Below are positions 2,222-51,680 of a stretch of 64,000 nucleotides of DNA, piece by piece. Both the position numbers and the translations under genes were made by a program. Source of the DNA: Mesorhizobium sp. SARCC-RB16n. Its GTDB lineage: Bacteria > Pseudomonadota > Alphaproteobacteria > Rhizobiales > Rhizobiaceae. The notes under the pieces are model-generated. The model searched no databases. It was not told the DNA's origin and saw only the letters and a list, made by a program, of their open reading frames with translations. How positions within the stretch are numbered: the stretch's first letter is position 1; the number at the start of each line of letters is the position of its first letter. The stretch is taken from the NCBI RefSeq assembly GCF_008520305.1, contig NZ_ML703272.1:1-64000 (forward strand). Direction: 5' to 3'.

Positions 2222-2704
<483 letters not shown>

Positions 2705-2752
2705 TCAATCTCGTAGCCCGGCGCATTCAAGCAGCGCCAAGGCCGGAAAATC

Positions 2753-3124
2753 TTACTTCGGACGCTTTGCACCGTACTTCGAACGGCGCTGCTTGCGGTT
2801 CTTCACGCCCTGCGTGTCGAGCACGCCGCGGATGATGTGGTAGCGCACGCCCGGAAGATCCTTGACGCGGCCGCCGCGGATCATGACCACGGAGTGTTCC
2901 TGAAGGTTGTGACCTTCGCCGGGGATGTAACCGATCACTTCAAAACCATTGGTCAGGCGGATCTTGGCCACCTTGCGCAGCGCCGAGTTCGGCTTCTTCG
3001 GCGTCGTCGTATAGACGCGCGTGCAGACGCCCCGCTTTTGCGGGTTCTGCTGCATGGCCGGGACCTTGTTGCGCTTCACCGGCGCAATGCGCGGCTTGCG
3101 GATCAGCTGGTTGACGGTAGGCAT
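2753..3124 (-). CDS. rpsL: 30S ribosomal protein S12
   Basis: A 123-residue S12 starting [12 protein letters not shown]. The frame stays open 14 codons further upstream, but this start matches the family and has an AGAGGG-type ribosome binding site just before it. S12 sits at the 30S decoding site. The streptomycin-related segments [14 protein letters not shown] and [11 protein letters not shown] look wild type, with the two lysines in PKKPNS present. It is the first gene of the str operon and follows the probable promoter at 3374-3402. Confidence 0.98.
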
Positions 3125-3373
3125 TAAACCCTCTTGTCTCTCAATTCCGTGTCTCGTGCCGGTCAAGGCTCGCTCAAAGCGTCATTTCCGTACGCAAATT
3201 CGGGCCACAAACCGCGCCTCGCGGTCTTGCCCGAACAAATCGCAGAGGAAGCGGAAACCGCTTCGTGCACGCCGGAAATGTCTTTTCGCTCGTAAAACGA
3301 ACCCTGTTTGAGGCAAACTCCAAAGCGTGTCGCTTCGGAAGGGAGAGCCTCACATCGGTTCTGACTGGGCGGC

Positions 3374-3402
3374 TTCTACTCGTAAGCCCGCGAACCGTCA
3401 AG
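3374..3402 (-). promoter_or_regulatory. Probable str operon promoter
   Basis: On the minus strand, CTTGAC is followed after 17 bases by GTAGAA, close to the rhizobial sigma-70 consensus. It lies about 250 bases upstream of rpsL. No gene is recognised in the surrounding 3125-3568 gap, which would hold a long 5' leader. Assigned from motif and position only. Confidence 0.5.
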
Positions 3403-3568
3403 CCCGCAGCGGCAAATATTGCGTTGAAGCCCGGGCTTGGCAGCCATGCGAAAACCGCATGTAATTTTCTTTCGCCATTTTGCAAGGGCGGGGAAGAAAG
3501 TGCCAAGCCTCTAGCAAAGTGAATGGCTTTCGGCTGTTGCAGGGCCTTGCTTCATGCGAAAAGGCCGC

Positions 3569-3889
3569 ATGAACAGCGACAATCCCTCGCCGCGGAGGAA
3601 TCGGCCCGTGAACGACAATGAAGAGCGCCCGGTCACCATCATCACCGGCCGGGTGTGGAAGAAGAAAGGCGGCAAGCCGGAAGGCGTGCATGTCATGCTG
3701 GTGGCGCCCGATGACGATTCGGCGGTGCGCCGGGCGCTCGAATCGCTCGCAGCGGAAGGCTACGCCGAGGCAGAGCTCGACCAGATCGGCGACATGGAGG
3801 GCGAGCCCGACGATGAGCCGCATCTTTCGGCCTTCCAGGGCGCGCTCGAAGGCGAAGTATCGATCGTAACCTTCGACGTGCCGATCTGA
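3569..3889 (+). CDS. Conserved small acidic protein of unknown function
   Basis: A 106-residue protein. The start used here follows a GAAAAGG ribosome-binding-like sequence; an in-frame ATG at 3554 is an alternative. After a proline/arginine/asparagine-rich N-terminus come a TIITGRVWKKKGG segment and an acidic C-terminal half ending in EVSIVTFDVPI. No enzymatic motif, signal peptide or membrane segment is visible. I recall similar short proteins in Mesorhizobium relatives but know no function. It is divergent from rpsL and followed, same strand, by the galactose dehydrogenase gene after 133 bases; co-transcription is possible but not shown. Confidence 0.7.
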   Translation: MNSDNPSPRRNRPVNDNEERPVTIITGRVWKKKGGKPEGVHVMLVAPDDDSAVRRALESLAAEGYAEAELDQIGDMEGEPDDEPHLSAFQGALEGEVSIVTFDVPI

Positions 3890-4022
3890 CCGAGGCGCGG
3901 CGCCCCTCACCTGTGCCCTGCGCCATGATGCCGATTCGTTCAGATAGCTGGCACGGGCGGCGCTTGCCCGTTATGGCCGATCTGCTAAGAGACGCGCAGT
4001 CGTCCAAACCCGGCGGAGCCTC

Positions 4023-4958
4023 ATGTCCTCATCCATCTCGCCCATAAGAATCGGCATTGTCGGCGTCGGCAAGATCGTGCGCGACCAACATCTTCCGGCA
4101 CTGGCCAAGGATCAGGACTACCAGCTGATTGCGGTTGCCAGCCGGCATGGCAAGGTCGACGGCATCGCGAATTTCCCCGACATAGAGACGATGCTTGGCG
4201 CGGTTCCGGAACTCGACGCGGTGTCGCTGTGCATGCCGCCGCAGTTCCGCTATGACGCCGCGCGCAAGGCGCTCGAGGCCGGAAAGCACGTCTTCCTGGA
4301 AAAACCGCCGGGTGCCACGGTCAGCGAGGTCGAGGACCTGAAGGCACTGGCGACAAAACAGGGCGTCTCTTTGTTCGCAAGCTGGCATTCGCGCTACGCG
4401 CCGGCGGTCGAAGCGGCGCGGACATTCCTGGCTTCGACCAAAATCAAATCGGCCGCGGTCGTCTGGAAGGAGGATGTGCGCCGCTGGCATCCGAACCAGG
4501 ACTGGATCTGGCAACCTGGCGGCTTCGGCGTCTTCGATCCCGGCATCAACGCGCTGTCGATCGCAACCTACATCTTGCCGGCCATGTACATCACCTCGGC
4601 CGTCCTCGACTTTCCCGAGAATCGCGACGCGCCGATCGCGGCCCAGGTCGCCTTCCGCGCCGCGAACGGATCCGATGTGACCATGGATCTCGACTGGTTG
4701 CAGACCGGACCGCAAAGCTGGGACATTCTCGCGGACACGGATGCTGGCAAGATGGTGCTCTCGGGTGGGGGCTCGAAGCTCGCCGTCGACGGCCGTGTCG
4801 TACACGAGGAGCCGGAAGCGGAATATCCGATGCTCTATCGGCGATTTGCCGAGATCGTCCACGCCCGAACGTCGGATGTGGACCTTGCGCCGCTCCAGCA
4901 CGTCGCCGACGCGTTCATGCTGGGCAAGCGCAATGTGGTCGAGGCGTTTTTCGACTGA
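4023..4958 (+). CDS. gal: D-galactose 1-dehydrogenase (Gfo/Idh/MocA family)
   Basis: A 311-residue NAD(P)-dependent sugar dehydrogenase. The Rossmann motif GIVGVGKI is at residues 11-18, and EKPPGA, the family's lysine-containing motif, begins at residue 93. The stretches WKEDVRRWHPNQDWIWQPGG and GVFDPGINALSI closely resemble the Pseudomonas D-galactose 1-dehydrogenase as I remember it. The expected reaction is oxidation of D-galactose to galactonolactone, entry to the De Ley-Doudoroff pathway; other pathway genes are not in the window. It is cytosolic with no signal peptide. Family assignment is firm; the substrate is inferred from similarity. Confidence 0.85.
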   Translation: MSSSISPIRIGIVGVGKIVRDQHLPALAKDQDYQLIAVASRHGKVDGIANFPDIETMLGAVPELDAVSLCMPPQFRYDAARKALEAGKHVFLEKPPGATVSEVEDLKALATKQGVSLFASWHSRYAPAVEAARTFLASTKIKSAAVVWKEDVRRWHPNQDWIWQPGGFGVFDPGINALSIATYILPAMYITSAVLDFPENRDAPIAAQVAFRAANGSDVTMDLDWLQTGPQSWDILADTDAGKMVLSGGGSKLAVDGRVVHEEPEAEYPMLYRRFAEIVHARTSDVDLAPLQHVADAFMLGKRNVVEAFFD

Positions 4959-4979
4959 GGGTCGCCGGGCGCGCTGGCC

Positions 4980-5230
4980 TCAGTCGACGATCGCGATGGC
5001 AAAGCCGTCATAGCCCTTGGCGCCCACGGTCTGGATGGCTGTGCCGTCCAGACGTTTGTCGCCGCCGATGAAGGAAAACGCCGCAGCAGCTTTCCTTGCG
5101 CCGCCGAGACGTCGATCGCCGGCAGGCCTTGGTCCCGGTTGGCCGCCAGAACCGCGTCGAGAACGGGATCCGGCTCGAAGAGCGAGGAAACGATGTAGTT
5201 GTCGACAGCCGTCCAGGTCTTCGTGCTCAT
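4980..5230 (-). pseudogene. Remnant of SAM-dependent O-methyltransferase
   Basis: The first 49 codons (MSTKTWTAVDNYIVSSLF through AIDVSAAQGKLL) match the start of a family of roughly 220-residue bacterial O-methyltransferases. Immediately afterwards, in another frame, come the family's last residues FIGGDKRLDGTAIQTVGAKG then YDGFAIAIVD and a stop. The whole middle, including the SAM-binding Rossmann core, is missing, and start-to-stop length (251 bases) is not a multiple of three. This is an internal deletion leaving head and tail fused out of frame. It sits between the convergent galactose dehydrogenase and the rpoC terminator. Confidence 0.8.
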
Positions 5231-22756: not shown

Positions 22757-23230
22757 ATGCGTTACACCCAAAGCCAGATCCGCGAGCTGCTTTCCATTTC
22801 GGTGGATGCGTTCCGCACGTGGCGGGATGCCATTCCCGCGCTGGCGATGCACAAGGGACATGCTCCTAGCTTCACGCCTGGAGACGTTGTTGCGATGGCA
22901 ATTGTCGCGGAACTCGTCAGGGATTTCGGTGTCCGTGTTGGCACCGTCGGGCACCGTTTCGATCAACTGTTCATGGAGTGTCGGGGAAGGTCATGGCTGT
23001 CGCTTGAAAACTGCATTGCTCTGATCGAAGTCGACAATCTCCGCCTTGTGGACGTGAAGGCGGATCGCCCATCGCTGGACGCTTCCACCCTTCGCGTTCC
23101 TTGTGGCCCGATCATATCTCGCCTGCGCTCCGCGCTCACAGCGACTGAATCCGATGACGTGCAAGGATACCTACAGTTTCCCCCGACTTCCGTGCCCGGT
23201 CAGCCTGAGCAACGCGGAAAACGAGCATGA
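22757..23230 (+). CDS. MerR-like HTH protein of restriction-like operon
   Basis: A 157-residue protein. Residues 1-60 resemble a MerR-like winged helix: YTQSQIRELLSISVDAFRTW is the helix-turn-helix and FTPGDVVAMAIVAELVRDFG the next helices. The C-terminal half matches nothing I recognise. It overlaps the methyltransferase gene by ATGA, making it the first gene of a three-gene operon. A role as transcriptional controller of the methyltransferase/nuclease pair, as C proteins are in restriction systems, is plausible; a structural role in the complex is an alternative. Confidence 0.75.
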   Translation: MRYTQSQIRELLSISVDAFRTWRDAIPALAMHKGHAPSFTPGDVVAMAIVAELVRDFGVRVGTVGHRFDQLFMECRGRSWLSLENCIALIEVDNLRLVDVKADRPSLDASTLRVPCGPIISRLRSALTATESDDVQGYLQFPPTSVPGQPEQRGKRA

Positions 23231-26200
23231 CCACCGTCTTCGCTTCAGCACTGGCGACAGAGTGGAAGGACCGTTTAGGGCTCACACATCGGCGCTCACC
23301 CGAACTCTACGAGTCGGCTGACGCCGTTAGCGACGTGCCGCATGCGCCAGCTATCCGCGCGGCACTGAATGAAATGGGTGTTTCGGCGATCTTCTGCGTC
23401 CAGGGAGTTCCCACCGTCGCCATCCTCGAAGCCGATCATTATGATCGTGCCAAGATTATCGATCTTCACGGCGCGCTCTGGAATCAGGGCTTGGCGAGCC
23501 TATTGTTAGTTATCGCCGATGACACTCTCAGAGCGTTTTCGCTCGCGCGTACTCCGTTCAGCGATCCCGGTGACGCATTCGAGACTCGTTGCCTCATTGA
23601 TAGCCTCAGCCTGACGACCGAAGCTCTAAGATTTCAGAATCTGATCTATGGAGCGGAATCCGGACGGCTCTGGAAGGACTACGGCGATTACTTCCCCCCT
23701 AAGGAACGTATCGACCAAGTCCTACTCGACAATCTGAACGCGTCCCACGAACTCCTGCAAGCTGCCGCGCTTGCCCCTGATGCGGCGCAAGCCTTGCTGA
23801 TCCAGGCGATGTTTATCGCCTATCTTGAAGACCGGGAGATCGTAACGCCTGCCTATTTTGCGGCCGTTACCGAGAAGAGCGCTGAGAGTTTCTCCGCGTT
23901 GCTGGAAACCGGCGACGTCGATCTCTTTCGATCGCTCTTTCGTACGCTCCACACAGATTTCAATGGTGACCTGTTCGTTGCGCCCTGCTCTTTCGAGCCA
24001 AAAGGCGAGGCGCCAGAAGTCACGGCCACCCATCTTACCATCTTGGCCCGCTTTCGATCGGGGCGCGAAGAGATGGCGCATTCAGGCCAGCAACGGTTCT
24101 GGGGTTATGACTTCCGCTATATCCCGATCGAGCTAGTCAGCGCCGTCTATGATCGCTTTCTGGGGGAACGCGAGGCCGAACGCCGCGCCAATGGCGCCTA
24201 TTACACGCCCATGTTCCTCGCCGACACCGTCGTTTCCCAAGCCTGGGAGATGTTGCCGGACGCGACACGCACGAGTGGAAACTTCCTCGACCCCGCCTGC
24301 GGTTCGGGCGTTTTCCTTGTCCGGTCGTTCCAGCGGCTATGCGAGCATTGGCGCGCCAAGCACAAAACGCAGACGATTTCCTGGAAGACGCTTCTATCAC
24401 TGCTGAGCCAAATTAATGGCTGGGATCTAAATGGCGGCGCCGTTCGGGTCGCGGTGTTCTCGCTCTATGTCGCTCTGCTCGAAGAGGTTTCGCCACGCGA
24501 CATCCGAAAACTCATCACCCGGGGAAAACTCCTCCCCGAGCTTTGGGGCAAGACCCTCGTCTGCCGAGACTTTTTCGAGGTGTCGCCAGACGGCGCCCGG
24601 TACGATGTCATCATCGGAAATCCGCCATGGACCAGCCGCCGAGGCCCGGCGCGCTCGTCCGTCCAGTGGAGCAAGAAGACCGGCCATCCTATGCCTGGAG
24701 GCGAAGACGCCTGGGCATTCAGTTGGAAAGCCCTCTCACATCTCGCCGATGACGGACTGATCGCGTTCCTGTTGCCAGCGATGGGATTTTTGCACAACCA
24801 CGCCCAAAACACGGTTGACGCACGTGACGCGTTCTTCCGGAAATCTCAGGTCCGCCGCATCATCAACTTCGCGGACCTTCGATTTCAGCTCTTCGAGAAA
24901 GCCCATCGCCCCGCCGCTCTGATTATCTACGGCAGCGCGAAAGCGGACGGTTTCCCATATCGTTTCGATTATTGGGCGCCGAAGGCCGATCTTAATCTCC
25001 GCATCAAACGTGTCATTACCCTGAGCAGCGCCGACAAGGCCGGACTTGGGGTCGGCGCGGTTCTGGATAACCCGCTTATCTTCAAGCAACGGCTTTGGAT
25101 GCGGGACCCAGACGCCAAGCTATTTGGTTACCTCGCCAGGCTTCCCAAGCTGGAGGCCTTCGTCAACGACTTCGGCAGCCTGAGCCGTCGCCGTGAAGAG
25201 CCGGGCGATCGATGGGTGATCGGCCAAGGCTATCAGCCTTTCAATGAGGGCAGCGAAAGCGACGCGCCACCGCTCGCCAGCGAGTACGTCGGTCGATTGC
25301 CAGACCTACCGATTACAGCGTATTCACGTTTGGCTCAGGCTGCGGAAGGCTTGCATCCGGCCGCTTCACCGACGGTTCGCCGTCGCGGATTCGAGGCCGG
25401 GTTCGACGGTACGCGCATTCTTATCCCGCGTGGGGTGGAGACATCGCAAAATCGCATGCGGGCCGCCTACTGCGACGAGCCGCTGACCTTCCAGCATATA
25501 TTCCAGGCGATCATGGTGCCGGATGGCCAACACGACCGTGCGAAGGTCCTAACCGCGATACTCAATAGTCGCGTCGCGGTCTGGTACGCCTTTCATGGCA
25601 CCGCGTCGTTCGGTTCGGATCGACCGGAGGTCCAGCAGGCCGACCTGCTGCGATTGCCATTTCCGTCGCCGGCCGATGTTCCCGATCAAAATGCCGCCGC
25701 TCGAGCAGCTCGTGAGCTGATTGCGATCGTTGACGACGCACGCGGACGGTCGAACGGGCCGTTTTCGATGCAGATCGAAGAGAGCGAGATCCTTCGAACC
25801 ATCGATCGGCTGGCGTACCAATATTTTTGCCTGTCCCCCGATGAAATCGCGCTGATCGACGATACCGTCGATGCGATCCTGCCCGCGCTGCAGCCTCATG
25901 AAGGCCACTTCCCGAAACTGTGGGGTGCACCGGACGAACCGCAACGGGCACAATACGCGCGCACATTGGCGGCCAGCCTGGCGGACTGGTTCAAAGACAA
26001 GAAAATTCATGCTCGCCTCGTCGCGCGCGGAGCGGACCTAGCGATACTTCGCCTGCACCTGGGCGGCCATGAAGGCTATGCCGAGGATGCCGGCGGCGAG
26101 CTAAGCGACGTTCTTGAGCAACTCGCTGCTCACATCAACAGGCCCCTCGATGGCAATTTCCAGCTGATGCCGGACCTCCGGTTGTTCGTCGGTGACTACC

Positions 26201-26325
26201 TTTACCTCATCAAGCCGATGCAGATGCGCTTTTGGCTACGCTCCACCGCGCTCGCCGATGCGGATGGTATAGCGCTCGATCTCCAGCAAGCCGCAGCCGT
26301 GCCGCAACGGCGGAGTGCTGATTGA
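23227..26325 (+). CDS. N6-adenine-type DNA methyltransferase (restriction-like)
   Basis: A 1032-residue protein. The SAM-binding motif DPACGSGVFL begins at residue 355 and the catalytic motif NPPW at residue 465, spelling a gamma-class N6-adenine DNA methyltransferase like the Eco57I/type IIG proteins. Before it lies NGAYYTPMFLAD, also family-typical. The long C-terminal half probably includes target recognition. I see no clear PD-(D/E)xK nuclease in the N-terminus; the separate small protein that follows (one-base overlap TGATG) probably supplies cleavage. It is preceded by an HTH gene overlapping by ATGA. Confidence 0.88.
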   Translation: MTTVFASALATEWKDRLGLTHRRSPELYESADAVSDVPHAPAIRAALNEMGVSAIFCVQGVPTVAILEADHYDRAKIIDLHGALWNQGLASLLLVIADDTLRAFSLARTPFSDPGDAFETRCLIDSLSLTTEALRFQNLIYGAESGRLWKDYGDYFPPKERIDQVLLDNLNASHELLQAAALAPDAAQALLIQAMFIAYLEDREIVTPAYFAAVTEKSAESFSALLETGDVDLFRSLFRTLHTDFNGDLFVAPCSFEPKGEAPEVTATHLTILARFRSGREEMAHSGQQRFWGYDFRYIPIELVSAVYDRFLGEREAERRANGAYYTPMFLADTVVSQAWEMLPDATRTSGNFLDPACGSGVFLVRSFQRLCEHWRAKHKTQTISWKTLLSLLSQINGWDLNGGAVRVAVFSLYVALLEEVSPRDIRKLITRGKLLPELWGKTLVCRDFFEVSPDGARYDVIIGNPPWTSRRGPARSSVQWSKKTGHPMPGGEDAWAFSWKALSHLADDGLIAFLLPAMGFLHNHAQNTVDARDAFFRKSQVRRIINFADLRFQLFEKAHRPAALIIYGSAKADGFPYRFDYWAPKADLNLRIKRVITLSSADKAGLGVGAVLDNPLIFKQRLWMRDPDAKLFGYLARLPKLEAFVNDFGSLSRRREEPGDRWVIGQGYQPFNEGSESDAPPLASEYVGRLPDLPITAYSRLAQAAEGLHPAASPTVRRRGFEAGFDGTRILIPRGVETSQNRMRAAYCDEPLTFQHIFQAIMVPDGQHDRAKVLTAILNSRVAVWYAFHGTASFGSDRPEVQQADLLRLPFPSPADVPDQNAAARAARELIAIVDDARGRSNGPFSMQIEESEILRTIDRLAYQYFCLSPDEIALIDDTVDAILPALQPHEGHFPKLWGAPDEPQRAQYARTLAASLADWFKDKKIHARLVARGADLAILRLHLGGHEGYAEDAGGELSDVLEQLAAHINRPLDGNFQLMPDLRLFVGDYLYLIKPMQMRFWLRSTALADADGIALDLQQAAAVPQRRSAD

Positions 26326-26978
26326 TGCTAATCGGTGATATGCAGGAGTGGGTCGACAGCTTCGTTTCGTTTGATGACCGCTTCTTGGAGAGGATCGCCG
26401 TCGCGTGGCCCGCTTGCATGGCCATTCTACCCGAACAGCCCGGGGAAGATGACATCACCATCAACCTCGTCGATCATCTCACCAAGGACGTCGTCGTGCG
26501 TCGGCTGTGCCATTGGGTCGAGTATCAGTTCGAGCCATTTGGCCTCGCTACGGACGGGTCGAAATACAGCAAGGGCATCATCGACATCGCCGTGCTCTTC
26601 GACTGGGAACGGGAGCGATATCTGGCCTATGAGTGCAAGCGGCTCAACGTGATCAACGGCGGAAGCCGCAGCTCCTTGGCCACCGTGTACGTCACCCAAG
26701 GCATGATGCGTTTTCTCAGTGAACAGTATGCGGAGCATCTGCCTGTCGGCTGCATGCTGGGCTATGTGCTGGACGGGGATGTGCCCTTTGCCAAGGCGCG
26801 GCTCGCCAGCGCCATAGGAAGCCATCCTCCTCTTGCTCTCATCGATGGGCCAACGCCACTTGCCGCAATCGAAACCATCGAACGATTCCGAACACGGCAC
26901 ACCCGTCCAGCTGGATTAGAAATTGAGCTTCGACACGCGCTATTTTCTTATCCATCAGTGACTGCGCCAATTGGCTGA
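26325..26978 (+). CDS. Putative PD-(D/E)xK nuclease partner of the methyltransferase
   Basis: A 217-residue protein with no family I can name. A candidate nuclease core is Asp87 in KGIIDIAVLF followed by Glu103-x-Lys105 in YLAYECKRLN, the spacing and hydrophobic context of a PD-(D/E)xK active site. The start used is the ATG in TGATG that overlaps the methyltransferase stop by one base; a TTG one codon upstream is possible. Strict coupling to a DNA methyltransferase supports a restriction role. It ends 220 bases from the converging STAND gene. The nuclease call is inference from motif and context. Confidence 0.6.
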   Translation: MLIGDMQEWVDSFVSFDDRFLERIAVAWPACMAILPEQPGEDDITINLVDHLTKDVVVRRLCHWVEYQFEPFGLATDGSKYSKGIIDIAVLFDWERERYLAYECKRLNVINGGSRSSLATVYVTQGMMRFLSEQYAEHLPVGCMLGYVLDGDVPFAKARLASAIGSHPPLALIDGPTPLAAIETIERFRTRHTRPAGLEIELRHALFSYPSVTAPIG

Positions 26979-27198: not shown

Positions 27199-30120
27199 TC
27201 AACTGACCCGCCCGTGGCACCGTTTGTATTTTTCGCCTGATCCACATGGGCATCGCTCGTTACGACCTACCTTCCGCACCGCTACTGGACCCCGCACAGT
27301 CGGAATGCGCCCGTTTCCCTTCAGCAGCGCCGCAGCTTGCTCCAAGGCCCCCGGCGGAGGAACCCACTTGGGTGGCGGCCCGACTGCACGAAGATGCCGG
27401 ATCAACTCACCCTGAGCGGCTAGTTCCTTTTGTACCAACGGCTTGAGACCGGGCTCATACGGCATAAGTCGAGCGATTTCCGCCTCTGCATCATCAAATC
27501 GACCGCAGTAGGCCAAAACGACGGCGTAGTGCGAGCGAACGGTGATGAGGTAATCCGCCAACTTCCATTGCCGCAGTTGCGGCAGGACAATCGTCTCCAT
27601 CATGTTCAATGCGCCATCGAAATCGTTGCGGCGGATAAACTGGTCAACGACATCCTGCGCAACACGGAATATAGAATCCGGCGCACGTGCCAGGTCGTAG
27701 AACTTCAAAGCGTGAATTCGCGCGAAAGGCGAAGGTTTGCCCTGCGCATCCATCGCCTTGGCTAAAAGGTCGAGGGAATCCGCAAGATGCTTGATATCGT
27801 CAACATCCGCTCCCTTCTTCAACATTTTGGCAAGGTCCGGCGCATTGTTGCCCATGACCCGTGCGGGCGTTAGCCCGATGAGATCGTAGTATTCCCCTAT
27901 CAAAGGGTCGACCCGCGCCACGGCCGCCGTCGGCTCTCCAAGTGCGAGTTCGGCGCAGGCGATATTGTATGAAAAGATGCGTCGATGCGCGGCGGGCAGT
28001 TCTTCGACGATTGGTGTTAGGTCTGCTATCAGGCTCACTGCTCCCCGACGGTCACCAATCCTCGCCAAGAAGTTCATGCGCTTCATGCCCGCACGAAGCC
28101 GCTCCTCCCCTCCGAGATTATTGGCCGTGATCAGCGCGTCCATCTGATCGAGCCAAACGGCCGCCCGATCCGAGTCGGCTTTCATATCGGCAAAGGCCAA
28201 AGCATCAAGAGCCTTGATGCGCTGATCTGGAGGAACGGTTTCGTCCTGCGCGCCGTGCTCGAGGTAGGCTTCGACCTCGGGCCAGACGCCCATCTCGTGA
28301 AACAGTTCTTCCGTCGCCATCTCGACCAGCACATCGAGCCGACCCACTGCACCCGTGAGCCGCAAGAACAAAGAGAGCTTCATCGGGCTCCAGCTCGTTT
28401 GAAGGCTCTCCTGGACCACCGTTCTCAGGGCCTCCTGACGCGCCCTCATCGCCTCTGTCCCGTGAAGAGCGAGGCGCCCTTTGCCGACGACTCGGGCCGC
28501 ATCATGCAACTTGATCTTGTCGCCCGCGAAGGCCTGCAGCAGGCCCTGACTCAGGAGATGGCGAAGCGATTGCAAAAAGATCGGTCGTTCTGGCCCTCCG
28601 GCGGCGCCGACGTATGAGCCAGCTTCCTCACGCGTGATGGGCGCATCGCAAAGACTGAGGAGGTCTGCGACTTCGGCCACAGCGCTTGGCAAGCGTTCGA
28701 AGACGCGGCCCAGGATAAATTCCTGCGCCATCTCTCTGGTGTGGGCCGAGCGCGCCAAGTCTGCACACAGGCGCTTCGCCGAACCCTCGTAGTCGGACCT
28801 TGCTACGGAGAGCGCATTGAGCACGAAAAGCGGGAGCCCTCCCGTCAAGTCGATCAAGTGCTGACAATCCGCGGCATCGCCGTGACATCCTGCTTCATGT
28901 GCGGCAGCAGCAACCGTATCAGGCGCCCACCCTGACAGATTTTCACGAGTAGCCCCGATAATGGCTTCGATCGCGGCGACTTCACCCTCCGGTCGGCCGA
29001 GAAGCACGAAGCGGATATTCTCAGCCGCCTGAACCACACCGATCAGATCGTCAGCAACCAGCTTGTGGACATTGTCCAGGGCAACCGTCACGACTTCTCC
29101 GAGTTCATGCACGCGGCGAGAGAGAAGCTGCAGGATTTCGCGGCCAGAAGCCCCAGGAAGAAAGATCTCGCCAAGGCCCTGCCCGCCGCCGAGCAAACGC
29201 CCGGCGACCTCGCGCGCGACAGCATTGGCCAGAGCCGCTCCTGGGAGGTCAGCGACGTCGAGGTAGACCAGAGGATTCGGAGCATGCTGGGCGGATTGTG
29301 CCAGCCATGAGGTTTTGCCTGCGCCCGAATAGCCAACGATCAGACGGATTCGCTCGCCCGTTGAGAGAATGGGCTCATTCTGTTGTACCCGATAGGGGAC
29401 CGGAGGCACTGGCAGATCTTGCAATTGCAGCACCAGTTGCTCAAAAAGGGCCGGAAGGTCTGGCGCAGCAAACACATGGTCGAGCGTCGCCTTCTCTCCT
29501 GTCGCCGCAAGCGTGACGAGCCCTGCCAGCTTCCAGACAAGTGTCTCAGGCGCCAGCGTTGCAAACGGCAAGGTTTCTGCCAGCCCACAAGTAGCCTGGA
29601 CTGCTTCCATCAAAGAGGGCTGCGGGAGAGGAAGGATCCGTTTGGCCGGTGCGGCCGCCGGCCAGTCGATGGTTACGTCCCCGGGCCAATCGCCTGCACC
29701 AAGCCTTTCCAACAAAGGCCCGTTCGGCTGTGCATTGCAGACGACGACGAAATGCGCAGTGCCGTCGCGCTCTCCTCTGGCATGGGAGGCACGCAATTCC
29801 GCAAATCGCGCCATAGCGCTCTCGATATCATTCCAGGCGAGGGCTTCCTTGCGATGCTTCACTTGGACGTAGATGCGAGTTCCGTCCAGTTGCACCTCGA
29901 CATCTTCGTCGCTTTCGACAGAAACGGTCTTTGCCGCCAACGCTGCCGCCGACAGCAGGCATTGCACGGTGTAAAGGTGCTGGAAAAGGAAGCCACGATG
30001 GACCGCTTCAATTCGAACCAGTTGCGCGGGGTCGAGAACGCTGGGGCCGACTCGGGTCGATTGGGACAAGGGCGGCGAGTCCTCCCCGTTTGCAGCGTAC
30101 ATTGCAGCTTCCTTTTTCAT
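27199..30120 (-). CDS. Cap4-like nuclease / STAND NTPase / SEC-C protein
   Basis: A 973-residue multidomain protein. Residues about 40-140 (RGFLFQHLYTVQCLL, VESDEDVEVQ, YVQVKH with Gln86 and Lys88) resemble the DUF4297/Cap4 dsDNA endonuclease domain. A P-loop ATPase follows: Walker A GYSGAGKT at 263-270 and Walker B VTVALDN near 344-350, then a GLPL motif (GGLPLFVLNAL) typical of STAND/AP-ATPases. The C-terminal half is helical, TPR-like, and the last 20 residues carry a SEC-C zinc finger (RNERCPCGSGEKYKRCHG). The start ATG overlaps the upstream peptidase stop (ATGA), decisive over the longer frame. The layout resembles Avs-type phage sensors but is shorter. Confidence 0.8.
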   Translation of the reverse strand: MKKEAAMYAANGEDSPPLSQSTRVGPSVLDPAQLVRIEAVHRGFLFQHLYTVQCLLSAAALAAKTVSVESDEDVEVQLDGTRIYVQVKHRKEALAWNDIESAMARFAELRASHARGERDGTAHFVVVCNAQPNGPLLERLGAGDWPGDVTIDWPAAAPAKRILPLPQPSLMEAVQATCGLAETLPFATLAPETLVWKLAGLVTLAATGEKATLDHVFAAPDLPALFEQLVLQLQDLPVPPVPYRVQQNEPILSTGERIRLIVGYSGAGKTSWLAQSAQHAPNPLVYLDVADLPGAALANAVAREVAGRLLGGGQGLGEIFLPGASGREILQLLSRRVHELGEVVTVALDNVHKLVADDLIGVVQAAENIRFVLLGRPEGEVAAIEAIIGATRENLSGWAPDTVAAAAHEAGCHGDAADCQHLIDLTGGLPLFVLNALSVARSDYEGSAKRLCADLARSAHTREMAQEFILGRVFERLPSAVAEVADLLSLCDAPITREEAGSYVGAAGGPERPIFLQSLRHLLSQGLLQAFAGDKIKLHDAARVVGKGRLALHGTEAMRARQEALRTVVQESLQTSWSPMKLSLFLRLTGAVGRLDVLVEMATEELFHEMGVWPEVEAYLEHGAQDETVPPDQRIKALDALAFADMKADSDRAAVWLDQMDALITANNLGGEERLRAGMKRMNFLARIGDRRGAVSLIADLTPIVEELPAAHRRIFSYNIACAELALGEPTAAVARVDPLIGEYYDLIGLTPARVMGNNAPDLAKMLKKGADVDDIKHLADSLDLLAKAMDAQGKPSPFARIHALKFYDLARAPDSIFRVAQDVVDQFIRRNDFDGALNMMETIVLPQLRQWKLADYLITVRSHYAVVLAYCGRFDDAEAEIARLMPYEPGLKPLVQKELAAQGELIRHLRAVGPPPKWVPPPGALEQAAALLKGNGRIPTVRGPVAVRKVGRNERCPCGSGEKYKRCHGRVS

Positions 30121-31391
30121 GATGCGGCCAGAAACCGGACCAGCACGTTGCCCATGCCACGACGATTTCTGATGCAGTCGTCGCAAAGGCGCAAGGATGG
30201 CACTCCAGGCATGGTCTCGGCGCCATTGACCAACCGATAGTCCAGCGTCGGCTCGTCTCCACAGGATGAGCAAACGTTCGTCCCACCCTCCGCCTCTACG
30301 GCGTGACGGGACAGAGCCGCCAGGTGTGGTTCGACTCGGTCAACAATTGAGTACCAGTAGGCGCTGTGCGGCTCGACCTGTTCCATGTACCGTTTCAGGT
30401 CGTCTGGATAATGTTCGGCAAGCCACGTGTAGGCGACTTCCCGACGCCGCTGGTCGTTCTGAACGAGGGTTTGATAGAGCTCGATCTGCAGGCGCAGGGA
30501 TTCACGCGGGTGTTTGCTGTTAAGTGCATAGAGTTGAACAAGATTGACCGCGAACCGGACGCCGCCGCTATAGGCCTCTCTGACTGTGCCGATGCAATAT
30601 TCCCGCAGATCCTCCTGTGAACCAGTCATCTGTTCGATGAGGCTCTGGTCATAGCGCCACGGATGCAGGCCAATTTCCATTCGCCACACATCGAGGTAGC
30701 CGCTGCTACGGAGGGCAGCTGCTATGACTGGATCCGCGTCAGGCCGATTGACGAGTAAGGGATAGATATCGTTGAGGCTCTCGACATCAGGATCAACAGA
30801 CCGTGCTGCGGCGAGGACGGCGTTCTGGGCTTTATGCGTGGCCTTGACTGGGTTCCTGCGAGCTTTCGACCATTTCACCTCCTGGGGAGGAACCGTCTCT
30901 GTCTCGACCGGCACCTCTACCAGCAAGGGGCTAAGCCGCAGAACTTCCGGTGAGCAATAGTCGGCGTCCGGAACAAGATCGATGCCGGCCTTCTTGTACA
31001 CCCTTGCAACCAAACGGGAGCAGAACTGGCGTTTCGTCCTCGGCTTACGCATTGAACGCGCTGCGGGCACTGAACGCCCAGCCTCCGGCAGCGAATAACG
31101 CGCACCAATCTCGGCGCGGGCATAGTCAATAACGCTCGATAAGACTTCCTGTGTGACGGGCTCCTTAAGGCGGAAGTGAAATACCTTTTCATCGTCCCGG
31201 AACAGCTCGCGCTGCAGATTGCGCGCCTGAACGCCGTCCATTGTCGAGTCGATGAAGGAGCCATGCTGTACGCAAATCATAGCGTGAGACACGATGCCAT
31301 GCGTCGCGATGCGGACCGCTTTGCTGGTGCCGGGTCGTGCCGTGAACAGAATGTCTCCCGGCTCAACGCTGTCGATCTTGATGCGCTTCAT
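30117..31391 (-). CDS. Permuted NlpC/P60 peptidase-like protein with zinc ribbon
   Basis: A 424-residue protein. The N-terminal 150 residues match the circularly permuted NlpC/P60 (YiiX/YaeF) papain fold: GDILF at 12-16, the catalytic-type histidine His36 in VSHAMICV and the cysteine Cys124 in RQFCSRLVARVYKKAG. A helical middle region follows. The C-terminus has two CxxC pairs (CSSCG...CDDC), a probable zinc ribbon. There is no signal peptide, so it is cytoplasmic. It is translationally coupled by ATGA to the downstream nuclease-STAND protein. A protease or acyltransferase effector activated by the STAND sensor is an inference. Confidence 0.75.
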   Translation of the reverse strand: MKRIKIDSVEPGDILFTARPGTSKAVRIATHGIVSHAMICVQHGSFIDSTMDGVQARNLQRELFRDDEKVFHFRLKEPVTQEVLSSVIDYARAEIGARYSLPEAGRSVPAARSMRKPRTKRQFCSRLVARVYKKAGIDLVPDADYCSPEVLRLSPLLVEVPVETETVPPQEVKWSKARRNPVKATHKAQNAVLAAARSVDPDVESLNDIYPLLVNRPDADPVIAAALRSSGYLDVWRMEIGLHPWRYDQSLIEQMTGSQEDLREYCIGTVREAYSGGVRFAVNLVQLYALNSKHPRESLRLQIELYQTLVQNDQRRREVAYTWLAEHYPDDLKRYMEQVEPHSAYWYSIVDRVEPHLAALSRHAVEAEGGTNVCSSCGDEPTLDYRLVNGAETMPGVPSLRLCDDCIRNRRGMGNVLVRFLAAS

Positions 31392-31485: not shown

Positions 31486-31532
31486 TGGTGGGCGATACTG
31501 GGTTCGAACCAGTGACCCCTACAATGTCAACC
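31486..31532 (-). other. 3' fragment of tRNA-Val(GAC) (putative att site)
   Basis: On the minus strand it reads from an anticodon loop TTGACAT through a variable loop, a complete T arm (CTGG TTCGAAC CCAG) and an acceptor strand ending in CCA. The 5' half of a tRNA is absent: upstream sequence does not pair with the TGTAG anticodon-stem strand. An integrase gene begins 139 bases away. This is an attachment-site copy of an element that uses a tRNA-Val gene; the intact gene is not in the window. Confidence 0.8.
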
Positions 31533-31670: not shown

Positions 31671-33044
31671 ATGCCTAAGTTATTTTTGGATGATTCCGTT
31701 GTCCTTGCCGCTAACTGCCCTTCTGAAAAAGACCAGGAAATCTATTGGGACCATCCCGTGGGATTGGATCGGCGTATCCGCAACGGCTCCGTCTCAGGGT
31801 TAGGTCTGCGCGTCACAGCGTTGGGGCATAAATCCTTTGTCCACGCCTATCAGTTCAACGGCAAACGTTACCGGAAGGCTCTGGGCTCCACCATCGTCCT
31901 CAACGTAGCCTCTGCGCGCCTGGCCGTCGGCCAGCGGCAACGTCAGTTGGAGGCCGGCGAAAATCCTGACCTTGATGACTGCGACAAGCGCCGCGCCCAT
32001 CTCCTGACGGTCCGCGAGGCTATTGACCGCTATTGGGAGAGTCATATCCAGACGCTATCGGCGGGGTATCAGGTCAACTTCGCAATATTTGTGGCGACGT
32101 GGCACCGGAAGCGGCCGAAAAAGGTCACTCGTCGAGGTCATAACATCCGCAAACCGTATATTGACTTCGGTTCGATGTTTGCGGACCGGCCGTTTTCCTC
32201 GATCAAACCCTTGGACACTGAACGATTCCAGCGGCAGTTTTCCTCGCCGTACAGCCACAACGACGCCTTGGGGCACGTTACGGCGCTATTCAACTGGGCG
32301 ATCCGGATGCAGCTCGTGGATATGCGCAACCCGTGCAGCCCGATCAGGGCGCGGAAAGTGATGCGGCGCCGCCGGGACTATTCCACCGAACAGATTAGGC
32401 AGATTGCGGCCCACATCTTCTATCCGATCCTCGATGTGCCGCCCGAAACCGCCAAGCTCGAAGGGCTTGCCAAACGGGATACGGCCCTGGTCAAGGCGCG
32501 GATAACAACTACCAACGACCAGATGCAGGAGCTCTGCAATTTCATGGGCATCCTGTTCCTGACCATGGCCCGCCCCAGTGACCTGACCAACGCGGAATTC
32601 GACCATTTCGATCTGGAGAAACTGGTCTGGCACAAGCACAATACCAAGGGCCTCAAGCTCTCGCGTTCGCTCTATGAATACGCCTATCGTTCGGTGCCCA
32701 TCCATCCTCGGGTTGCCGGGATGGTGCAGGCCCAGCGCCTTCGCTGGCCTGAAAGCAAGTTGCTGTTCCCGTCGCACACGGACATGGCCCTGCCCCGCGA
32801 CAACTTCCGCAAGGGGCTAGACAGGTTCAAAGCCCTTCCGGGTGTGCCGGAGTATTTCCAGCTTTACGACCTCAAGCGGATTGCGATTTCGCTGATGCTG
32901 ACCGGTCAGGGTGTATCGCACGAGGCGATCTCCCATTACGTGGACCACAAGGGCAATCTCGAAACCACCATGATCTACGATCTCGGACTGGTGGATCCGC
33001 TGCGCCCGGTGACCGAACGGCTTGGCGTGCTGCTCGGCATCTAG
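31671..33044 (+). CDS. int: Tyrosine recombinase (integrase)
   Basis: A 457-residue integrase. An N-terminal arm-binding-like domain (GLGLRVTALGHKSFVHAY) is followed by a core-binding region and a C-terminal catalytic domain. Arg301 in ARPSDL fits the first catalytic arginine and Tyr436 in TTMIYDLG the nucleophile. The usual HxxR box is replaced by Tyr399-Asp-Leu-Lys (YDLKRIAISLML), with SHYVDH shortly before the tyrosine. It sits next to the tRNA-Val fragment and GTTACA repeats, so it should be the enzyme that integrated this element. Whether the altered box leaves it fully active is unknown. Confidence 0.88.
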   Translation: MPKLFLDDSVVLAANCPSEKDQEIYWDHPVGLDRRIRNGSVSGLGLRVTALGHKSFVHAYQFNGKRYRKALGSTIVLNVASARLAVGQRQRQLEAGENPDLDDCDKRRAHLLTVREAIDRYWESHIQTLSAGYQVNFAIFVATWHRKRPKKVTRRGHNIRKPYIDFGSMFADRPFSSIKPLDTERFQRQFSSPYSHNDALGHVTALFNWAIRMQLVDMRNPCSPIRARKVMRRRRDYSTEQIRQIAAHIFYPILDVPPETAKLEGLAKRDTALVKARITTTNDQMQELCNFMGILFLTMARPSDLTNAEFDHFDLEKLVWHKHNTKGLKLSRSLYEYAYRSVPIHPRVAGMVQAQRLRWPESKLLFPSHTDMALPRDNFRKGLDRFKALPGVPEYFQLYDLKRIAISLMLTGQGVSHEAISHYVDHKGNLETTMIYDLGLVDPLRPVTERLGVLLGI

Positions 33045-49690: not shown

Positions 49691-49799
49691 ATCGATCCAT
49701 TTCCAAAAGCAGTGAATTCGTCACAAGGTATCCTGAGCGCCATTTTTTTCCACAAGCTCACTTTGGCACCACCATTTCTATCGACGGCCCTGTGCTTTG

Positions 49800-51680
49800 A
49801 TGTCATATCGCAGTATGGATGTTCACAAGACTTCACTTTTAGCTGTTTTTGATGCCAAGCAGAGGCTTGAGGTGCCGCTTTTTCAGCGGCAATACGTTTG
49901 GAGCGAAGAGCAGCAATGGCTGCCGCTTTGGGAGGATATTGAGCGGAAGTTCACCGAGGCGTTGGATGGGCGCAAAGACGCTCCTGTTCACTTCCTTGGG
50001 GCCATGGTCCTCGATCAGAAGCAAACCCCAACCGGTCATGTTGTGGTGCGCCAAGTCATCGATGGTCAGCAACGCTTGACGACGCTTCAGATATTCCTCG
50101 CGGCCTACCGAGACTTCTGCAGCGAGAAAGAGTGCCCTGCGCTGGCTGCTGAGTGCTCCAAATTTCTGGAGAATACTGGAATGATGGCCGATCAATCCGT
50201 GGACCGCTTTAAAGTGTGGCCTACGCAACTCGATCGACCTCAATTTACCGACGTAATTGTTTCCGGTAGTCGCACCGAAGTTCTGAGAAGGCATCCACTT
50301 CGAAAGAAGCCTTACGCTCGCAAGCCCGACCCTCGGCCTCGGATGGTCGAGGCCTATCTGTTTTTCTACGAGCAACTAATTGGGTTTTTCAGCGGTGAGA
50401 ATGGCGAAGCGCCTCTTGCCTCAGAATTTCCCCTCACGACCCGCGTTGACGAGTGCTTTCAAACGTTGCGAAACGCCCTGATGGTGGTCGTGATCGACCT
50501 TCAGAAGGACGATGATCCACAGGTCATTTTTGAAACGTTGAATGCGCGGGGACAGCCACTGCTCCCCGCCGACCTGCTGAGGAACTACATTTTCTTCCGG
50601 GCAAGCCGCGATGGCCTCGATGTGGAGGCCAGTTACAAGCAATACTGGGCTCGTTTCGATGAAGAATTCTGGCGCGAAGAGGTTAAACAGGGGCGTCTGA
50701 CGCGACCGCGTAGTGACCTTTTCATGCAGCATTTTTTGTCCAGCCGACAGGGGCAGGACATCCCCATCAAGCACCTCTACATCGAGTATCGACATTGGAT
50801 TGAATCCGAGAAGCCCTTTCCTGACGTGGCTACCGAGCTCAAAACTTTGGCCCGGCAAGGCGACCAGTTTCGCCGCATCATCGCCCCCGAAAAAAGCGAC
50901 GAGATCTACGGCCTATGCACATTTCTAGAGGCTTACGATATCAGGACAGCGTACCCGCTTCTCCTGGCCCTGCTTGATGCCAATCTGGAAGCGACAGAAT
51001 GGCAGGCAATATCTGAAATCCTTGAGTCGTACCTTTTGCGCCGGGCAGTCTGCAATCTCGGCACAAAGAACTACAATAGAATATTCCTCGGGCTCACGCG
51101 CAATCTTCGCAGGGATGGCTTCAGCGCTGCCAAGCTCAAAGCTCTGCTCCTCGCCCAGACAGGCGAATCCGGGGTTTGGCCGGATGACGCCACTTTCCGG
51201 GAGGCTTGGGTAAGCAAACAGCTCTATGGACCGTTGAACAGCCCTAAATTGGTCCACCTCTTCAGCCGTCTCAATCAGACGTTCATGTCCTCAAAGTCTG
51301 AAGCTGTTGTTTTCGGCACCCAGCCAACCGTCGAGCACATCATGCCCCAAACCTGGACCAAAACCTGGCCGTTGCCAGATGGTGGGCAAGGCATGGATTT
51401 TACGGAGCTGTATTCAGCCTCCCCTGCGGATCCGCGCGTGACGGCTACCAGGAAGCGCGAGGTTGCCATTCAAACGCTTGGAAATTTGACGATTCTTAGC
51501 TCCGGTCTGAACACCTCTCAATCCAATCAGTCTTGGGACAAAAAGCGGCCAGAAATGATGAAACACTCGCTGCTCCCGATTAACCAGAGCCTGCTTGAAA
51601 TGTCAGTTTGGGACGAAAGCACCGTTCAGACCCGTGGAGAGCAGCTGTTCGAGCGGGCATTGAGCGTCTGGGAGCGTTAA
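49800..51680 (+). CDS. GmrSD-like DUF262/DUF1524 endonuclease
   Basis: A 626-residue fused GmrS-GmrD protein. The N-terminal DUF262 has PLFQRQYVWSEEQQW and IDGQQRL at residues 87-93 (a ParB-related NTP-binding motif). The C-terminal DUF1524 HNH-like nuclease begins near residue 511 with TVEHIMPQ and continues LGNLTILSSGLNTSQSNQSW. GmrSD enzymes restrict DNA carrying modified, often glucosylated hydroxymethyl, cytosine; other family members cut phosphorothioate DNA. A TTG one codon earlier could also start. It converges on the methyltransferase-helicase-nuclease operon nine bases away. Confidence 0.9.
   Translation: MSYRSMDVHKTSLLAVFDAKQRLEVPLFQRQYVWSEEQQWLPLWEDIERKFTEALDGRKDAPVHFLGAMVLDQKQTPTGHVVVRQVIDGQQRLTTLQIFLAAYRDFCSEKECPALAAECSKFLENTGMMADQSVDRFKVWPTQLDRPQFTDVIVSGSRTEVLRRHPLRKKPYARKPDPRPRMVEAYLFFYEQLIGFFSGENGEAPLASEFPLTTRVDECFQTLRNALMVVVIDLQKDDDPQVIFETLNARGQPLLPADLLRNYIFFRASRDGLDVEASYKQYWARFDEEFWREEVKQGRLTRPRSDLFMQHFLSSRQGQDIPIKHLYIEYRHWIESEKPFPDVATELKTLARQGDQFRRIIAPEKSDEIYGLCTFLEAYDIRTAYPLLLALLDANLEATEWQAISEILESYLLRRAVCNLGTKNYNRIFLGLTRNLRRDGFSAAKLKALLLAQTGESGVWPDDATFREAWVSKQLYGPLNSPKLVHLFSRLNQTFMSSKSEAVVFGTQPTVEHIMPQTWTKTWPLPDGGQGMDFTELYSASPADPRVTATRKREVAIQTLGNLTILSSGLNTSQSNQSWDKKRPEMMKHSLLPINQSLLEMSVWDESTVQTRGEQLFERALSVWER

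Follow-up and report, generated by a model that had tools for sequence, protein, structure and literature searches.

The 64,000-nucleotide stretch analysed here (the window hereafter) comprises positions 1 to 64,000 of contig NZ_ML703272.1 of Mesorhizobium sp. SARCC-RB16n, and contains two adjacent genes that an earlier note, made from the letters alone, had proposed as a candidate new two-gene defence system. The list of open reading frames and the window sequence bear out the layout read there: both genes are on the minus strand, the first at 30117-31391 and the second at 27199-30120, and they share an ATGA overlap. The first (C92 hereafter) codes for a permuted NlpC/P60 enzyme of the Peptidase_C92 family, and the second (STAND hereafter) for a protein combining a Cap4-type nuclease, a STAND nucleoside triphosphatase (NTPase), TPR repeats and a SEC-C finger. 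Residue counts for the first protein refer to an alignment of 28 proteins, namely the window's and 27 relatives, and those for the second to 68 aligned STAND proteins.

30117..31391, minus strand: gene 1, C92 permuted NlpC/P60 (YaeF/YiiX-like) enzyme, 424 amino acids (PF05708, E 2.1e-10; profile against the PDB)
31284..31286, minus strand: catalytic His36 codon (invariant, 28/28)
31248..31250, minus strand: codon of the third polar residue, Asp48 (H, D or E in 28/28)
31095..31097, minus strand: active-site Tyr99 codon (invariant, 28/28)
31020..31022, minus strand: catalytic Cys124 codon (invariant, 28/28)
30174..30272, minus strand: C-terminal zinc ribbon, C374, C377, C403 and C406 (all four in 9/9 STAND-adjacent aligned rows)
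30117..30120, minus strand: ATGA overlap of genes 1 and 2 (sequence)
27199..30120, minus strand: gene 2, Cap4-STAND-TPR-SEC-C protein, 973 amino acids (open reading frame, Pfam, fold model)
29575..30033, minus strand: Cap4-type nuclease domain, residues about 30-182, with an α-β-β-β-α-β core (PF14130 in 18/18; LmuA model; secondary structure of the fold model)
29857..29916, minus strand: nuclease motif E69-x-DED-x-E ... Q86-V-K88 (E69, D71, E72, D73, E75, Q86 and K88 invariant, 68/68)
28453..29403, minus strand: STAND NTPase and winged helix, residues about 240-556 (AAA_22 in 15/15; VIA-align matches to MalT, Apaf-1, NRC1 and PH0952)
29311..29334, minus strand: Walker A, residues 263-270 (G266, G268, K269 and T270 invariant, 68/68)
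28501..28506, minus strand: His539-Asp540 (invariant, 68/68; aligned with the VHD of the STAND protein PH0952, E 0.0022)
27379..28455, minus strand: TPR superhelix, presumed sensor, residues about 556-914 (fold model and fold matches)
27208..27264, minus strand: SEC-C finger, residues 953-971 (PF02810, E 1.8e-8)

The enzyme and the nuclease-STAND-repeat protein

The product of gene 1 matches PF05708 at 41.3 bits, above the curated cut-off of 27, and in the PDB its family profile retrieves BcPPNE of Bacillus cereus as the best match (3kw0, 3.4e-10), followed by YiiX of E. coli (2if6, 1.2e-9). The His36 and Cys124 that the earlier note assigned to a permuted papain fold are both invariant, and position 48 is occupied by H, D or E in 14, 10 and four proteins respectively. 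H36, D48, Y99 and C124 follow the permuted order His, polar residue, Tyr, Cys, and thus match the Cys-His-polar-Tyr set described for YiiX and BcPPNE (PMC3142127; this and the other papers are cited from extracts of their text); judged by these conserved residues, the active site is intact. The zinc ribbon, which was also recognised from the start, spans a region that is gapped in 18-19 of the 28 rows, namely the shorter relatives, and is kept as well in a C92 protein that is not linked to STAND (L011; L-numbers label loci with STAND and/or C92 relatives). The gene 1 product has no obvious signal peptide by eye. The permuted NlpC/P60 structures show hydrophobic (S1) pockets, YiiX holds a fatty acid and several characterised enzymes of this class, acyltransferases included, act on lipids or acyl groups (PMC3142127, PMC12994826), while the more distant relative Tox-Act1 is a phospholipase (PMC12994826). 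Hence the designation of the protein as a peptidase is doubtful, even though permuted cysteine peptidases are named in these papers too.

In the second protein the QVK motif at 86-88, the Walker A motif and the GLPL motif are all present as first read, with P430 of GLPL likewise invariant in 68/68 proteins. We take His539-Asp540 to correspond to the MHD motif of NLR proteins. The helical repeats take the form of a TPR superhelix in an AlphaFold model of the whole protein (mean predicted local distance difference, pLDDT, 86.7), and the SEC-C finger scores 34.5 bits against a cut-off of 20.4. The SEC-C pattern is found in 49 of the 68 proteins, and is thus common but optional and not essential to the core of the family.

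A Pfam scan of the whole gene 2 protein gave no match to Cap4 (PF14130) at E<=1. When N-terminal domains of the family were isolated, PF14130 matched all 18 (E<=0.1; best 8.9e-8), the window's own at 4.3e-5. The PADLOC LmuA model PDLC03848 covers residues 37-135 of the gene 2 protein at 3.9e-8, and a model of the LmuA type matches 8/9 scanned family members; against the PDB a profile of the domain finds weak matches, the best at 0.033. By profile, the DUF4297/Cap4-like nuclease of the earlier note therefore stands for the family as a whole, with the window's own domain falling just short of the cut-off. No Avs structure is among the 50 VIA-align matches listed, which excludes nothing. The classification of gene 2 as a nuclease-STAND-repeat protein is supported.

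Linkage, distribution and genomic context

C92 adjoins STAND in the window and in L001, L016, L017, L018, L020, L022, L023 (with its copy L024) and L028. The ATGA overlap recurs in L016 and L028, and gaps of 42-54 base pairs (bp) separate the genes in L001, L017, L018, L020, L022 and L023. A second association is seen in Halopseudomonas (L070), with C92 downstream of STAND across a gap of 189 bp. A STAND tree was built from 86 rows, without six duplicates and without STAND frames below 750 amino acids, such as those of L028 and L010. On it the nine C92-linked rows require 4 changes, where shuffled labels gave 8.8 on average (0/500 as low), and eight of them fall inside one clade of 11. Conversely, 10/11 rows of the corresponding clade of the C92 tree are STAND-linked, the exception being L135, where the C92 gene is presumably flanked by transposases. 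The pairwise identities of the two genes are strongly correlated across eight loci (Mantel Spearman 0.91, 0/5000 permutations as high; 0.95 on adding L070), a value tempered by the inclusion of the near-identical L001 and L016; L028 and L010 were not part of this set. Both genes are under purifying selection: between L017 and L018 the ratio of nonsynonymous to synonymous substitution (dN/dS) is 0.13 for C92 and 0.12 for STAND, at dS 1.05 and 0.91, and between the window and L028 it is 0.19 for C92. Within four genes either side of STAND in the eight fetched pair loci, the only common genes are C92, a type IIG restriction-modification gene (5/8) and the companion of the latter (L018, L028). Given this matched divergence and the paucity of other shared neighbours, C92 and STAND behave as one unit of inheritance within the clade. 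On the same grounds we judged it unlikely that general neighbourliness within defence islands is the sole cause of the link, although it may account for the type IIG and toxin-antitoxin neighbours. The closest relative of the window STAND gene is that of Mesorhizobium LSJC280B00 (L028; 88% identity in the best segment), where the gene is split into two frames (2314-5188), reflecting a broken gene or an assembly error.

The STAND family extends well beyond this clade. One scan of genome contigs yielded 131 relatives; among the 80 that were retained (51 were left out), the hosts are mostly Proteobacteria; Bacillota, Cyanobacteriota, Acidobacteriota and Planctomycetota contribute one row apiece, and Thermodesulfobacteriota two. 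Plasmid records with matches number 54, of which 24 cover >=80% of the query; these records show homologues in Enterobacterales at about 40% identity, and four Streptomyces plasmids match the protein. Among complete E. coli genomes, 35/5426 carry >=80% of the STAND gene, and in the E. coli loci inspected no C92 gene adjoins it. Three phage records match the protein, one of them over at least 80%. Profile searches of genome samples detected C92 in 3/385 genomes of a class and 4/397 of an order, and STAND in 3/397 of the same order; scored with at most four C92 or two STAND candidates per genome, the two profiles coincided in one genome (G001), and co-occurrence was too rare to use.

A survey of the gene neighbourhoods of STAND homologues, with 20 near-copies or remnants and the window left out, found C92 directly upstream in 8/78 loci. 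For 44 of the 70 C92-less loci, a crude filter found no gene on the same strand a short way upstream, so that the STAND gene is commonly alone; this filter overlooked upstream genes in L019 (the PIN gene) and L029 and listed some frames that are probably not genes. Plasmids tell a similar story, with a C92 gene in 1/9 STAND loci inspected and STAND adjoining C92, among seven C92 loci inspected, only in L001 and, as a remnant, in L010. An obligate two-gene system was accordingly rejected, and what survives of the two-gene system first proposed is close linkage and co-inheritance in one clade.

The STAND family sits in a defence-rich neighbourhood. From 212 neighbouring proteins, after dropping near-copies and genes below 150 amino acids, 120 were drawn and three split-STAND fragments removed; the remaining 117 matched 146 PADLOC families at E 1e-15, compared with one for 95 proteins from six other stretches in six genomes, a count of models and not of proteins, from sets of unequal size. 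As 13 of the 25 rows listed are GajB models, it overstates diversity; the models listed include Gabija, Iet, Lamassu, MADS, DRT and type IIG, each matched by two proteins. In the window the type IIG gene is convergent to gene 2:

23227..26978, plus strand: neighbour, not part of the pair; type IIG restriction-modification gene and an overlapping 218-amino-acid gene (PADLOC REase_MTase_IIG, 1.9e-78)

With L070 and seven duplicates or remnants excluded, 6/9 linked loci have a IIG-like gene no more than 6 kb away, versus 6/82 other STAND loci (Fisher 1e-4); when near-identical linked loci are merged, the 82 not being thinned further, 4/7 have one (Fisher p 0.0025). The IIG gene and its 218-residue companion (p218) recur by C92-linked STAND loci in varying order (window 23227-26978, L018 2948-6686, L028 5374-8554). 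L018 carries IIG, the p218 homologue, C92 and STAND in one string, with a 4-bp overlap at the junction with C92-STAND. The IIG frame of L028 is fragmented, and L011 (2-1515) has IIG, p218 and C92 without STAND.

Known systems, proposed mechanism and alternatives

From sequence and model, gene 2 follows the general plan of Avs proteins, i.e. an effector domain, a STAND NTPase and a C-terminal repeat sensor, and Avs3 too has C-terminal repeats. The N-terminal Cap4-type nuclease followed by a STAND NTPase is likewise shared with Avs3 (PMC12198126, PMC11291478), in which recognition leads the nuclease domains to pair (PMC12198126). The architecture is therefore less new than first thought. Unlike Avs3, however, the 973-residue protein ends in a SEC-C tail and has a C92 partner. 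The PADLOC library holds Avs models, and of the nine PADLOC families matched by gene 2 at E<=1 none is named Avs; no PADLOC model covered most of either protein, in keeping with the novelty that had been claimed for the pair. Type 1 Avs has a trypsin-like protease and an MBL-type (metallo-β-lactamase) nuclease as partners, in place of which C92 is found here. More generally, Avs, Hachiman and other systems repeatedly pair a nuclease with a protease, and immune cores acquire nuclease-protease genes (PMC12799240). The STAND-repeat proteins of P4-like satellites (TIR-NLR and variants) also join STAND and repeats to an N-terminal effector that can be exchanged, Mrr_cat and BpuSI_N nucleases being among the variants (PMC9122126). 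Compared with these, gene 2 has a Cap4 effector, SEC-C and a C92 partner. Its nuclease family is shared, by profile (PF14130 and LmuA models), with Lamassu LmuA, DUF4297-HerA and Cap4-SAVED, but those nucleases are controlled by SMC, HerA or SAVED partners or domains, whereas in gene 2 control would fall to the fused STAND; the Lamassu SMC subunit LmuB was not found among five other window proteins scanned. Gene 1 has its family and active-site residues in common with YiiX and BcPPNE, but differs from these and from Tox-Act1 in its C-terminal helices and zinc ribbon and in being tied genetically to an NLR-like protein. Among the matches listed from the open-licence literature, no title or start of an abstract connects a STAND defence protein with SEC-C or with a C92/YiiX enzyme, and the main texts of DefensePredictor and of the P4-satellite paper (PMC9122126) mention neither SEC-C nor NlpC. 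Thus what is known is Cap4-STAND-TPR as in Avs3 and STAND-repeat proteins with exchangeable effectors; what is new is the C92 partner and the SEC-C tail.

A role of the pair in phage defence is suggested by its architecture and neighbourhood. We give about an even chance to the reading that gene 2 encodes an immune protein of the NLR/Avs type and that C92 is its clade-specific enzymatic partner, serving as a second effector. A phage protein would bind the TPR superhelix and free the nucleotide-locked STAND switch, comprising the Walker A motif, the winged helix and the invariant His-Asp, which would then oligomerise. The N-terminal Cap4 domains might thereby pair, as in Avs3, and degrade DNA by analogy with DUF4297-HerA, which degrades host and phage DNA (PMC11291478). 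In the one clade C92, presumably made from the same transcript, would be the second effector, possibly directed to the membrane; its most likely targets are the acyl groups of membrane lipids or of acylated proteins, which it would cleave or transfer. Candidate docking parts are the zinc ribbon of C92 and the SEC-C finger of STAND. If this is correct, a probable lipid-acting enzyme would be added to the effectors commanded by bacterial NLR-like proteins, and the exchange of partners would take place not only within the polypeptide but also outside it. As the STAND family is large and present in E. coli, its core is open to study in ordinary laboratory strains.

Several observations weigh against this reading. 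C92 is lacking in L019, L021 and L025, three of the 11 rows of the STAND clade, and directly upstream in 70/78 STAND loci, and is therefore dispensable; it also occurs without STAND (L011, L135-L138). SEC-C is absent by pattern from 19/68 STAND proteins, the window's own Cap4 domain reaches 24.2 bits, just under the PF14130 cut-off of 26.2, and the VIA-align rows listed are taken up by the TPR part and barely cover the nuclease domain. The presumed lipid action of C92 is an analogy with its family: PMC3142127 regards its members as cysteine peptidases or enzymes related to these, refers to a permuted cysteine peptidase, and puts forward an amidase action on acyl-amino acid bonds for BcPPNE and YiiX. 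By the same analogy, an acyl-protein, acyl-peptide or peptide is a possible substrate.

Alternatively, STAND could be a complete single-gene defence system, with C92 an independent defence or toxin gene hitch-hiking in one clade. The many STAND loci with nothing found close upstream by the crude filter, the C92 relatives that are alone, in prophage contigs or beside TIR, patatin and PIN conflict genes, and the retention of C92 without STAND in L135 all speak for this; but the matched divergence of the two genes, their overlaps and short gaps, the few other shared neighbours and the second, downstream association in Halopseudomonas render it unlikely. Somewhat more doubtful still is a true protease which, on STAND activation, would cut the nuclease or a host protein, much as the type 1 Avs protease opens a gated nuclease. 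The papain-like active site is intact and belongs to a family whose very description allows for peptidases (PMC3142127), and nuclease-protease pairs recur in several systems (PMC12799240). However, the protease of type 1 Avs is of the trypsin type and its target is a separate MBL nuclease, whereas here Cap4 is part of the sensor protein, and C92 is missing from most of the relatives examined; the hydrophobic S1 pockets of permuted NlpC/P60 structures also sit poorly with a protease. C92 might instead act as a modifier that removes an acyl group from, or adds one to, the STAND protein or a membrane partner, thus keeping STAND silent. Its family has acyltransferases and proposed amidases, and its gene precedes the nuclease gene, as antitoxin genes often precede toxin genes; nevertheless, such a restraint is improbable given that most examined STAND relatives have no such gene alongside and that C92 survives without STAND.

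We hold it equally improbable that the pair acts as a guard of the neighbouring type IIG system, triggered when that system is inhibited by a phage. The enrichment of IIG-like genes at linked loci, which persists after merging, the single gene string of L018 and the STAND-less set of L011 would fit such a guard, but defence islands cluster anyway, the IIG genes are diverse (other than in L028 and L011, they are 24-46% identical to that of the window) and vary in position and orientation, and L017, L020 and L022 have none (the L020 contig and the upstream side of L022 being short). Least probable, and only barely credible, is a STAND-type regulator or a stability module of plasmids and islands without a role in defence: the NTPase half has fold matches to the regulator MalT, and the genes are found on plasmids and islands, but the nuclease motif is invariant and defence genes abound in the neighbourhood.

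The place directly upstream of STAND might be a slot in which a common Cap4-STAND-TPR core, often with SEC-C, takes different toxic enzymes by lineage. It would then act as a dual-hit alarm, the fused nuclease destroying DNA and the exchangeable partner acting in trans. We advance this tentatively, as a minority possibility. In L019 and L021, both of the clade but without C92, a PIN-like gene (DUF5615 by a scan of L021) overlaps the STAND start by 4 bp. In L057 and L139 a gene for a protein of 206-209 amino acids, 69% identical between the two, lies directly upstream with an overlap of 4 bp and a gap of 9 bp respectively:

L057 7342-7971, L139 8065-8685 and, as a short frame, L045 7823-8059: 206-209-amino-acid protein with an RN-x3-H motif, upstream of STAND

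This conserved protein is a possible alternative partner, and its RN-x3-H motif may resemble that of HEPN nucleases; the L057 copy has no Pfam match and the L057 STAND protein lacks SEC-C. C92 would then be, to our knowledge, the first permuted NlpC/P60 enzyme in the role of a swappable NLR-like partner. In L025, L026 and L027 respectively, CoiA-like, HipA and Fic genes lie 41-106 bp upstream; among all these upstream genes, some are probably ordinary toxin-antitoxin neighbours.

C92 without STAND and the island setting

Loci that carry C92 away from an intact STAND gene have varied neighbours. On the Ri plasmid pRi1724 (L010, 7001-8625) a full-length C92 gene stands beside a short STAND remnant, and at least five similar records are among the matches listed. 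In L137 (5007-7820) C92 is directly downstream, with a 4-bp overlap, of genes that we read as an AbiE-like toxin-antitoxin pair, and in L136 (2744-8110) a presumably similar pair is about 2 kb upstream. Shorter C92 relatives, from a viral contig and plasmids, occur beside patatin, TIR or AbiH genes (L112 7986-10044, L015 5983-8125 and L013 5968-8015), suggesting that C92 may be a wider conflict gene. In viral contigs a single-sequence query confirmed no C92, and an alignment query found 21 loci, none with a STAND match. On the STAND side, a convergent gene of 128-166 codons lies just after STAND in L045, L046, L052, L053, L056, L057, L081 and L084, all eight of which lack the SEC-C pattern; its L053 copy has no Pfam match.

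Two further features lie beside the pair in the window:

31671-33044: tyrosine integrase gene (Pfam scan)
31489-31519: lone tRNA-like 3' end with a T-loop sequence (recognised by eye)

No second copy of the tRNA-like 3' end was found in the window at <=3 mismatches, nor was a complete tRNA; its position next to the integrase gene probably marks one border of an island. The window holds a second defence gene at 49797-51680, which codes for a type IV restriction-like protein (PADLOC mREase_IV, 3.4e-96).

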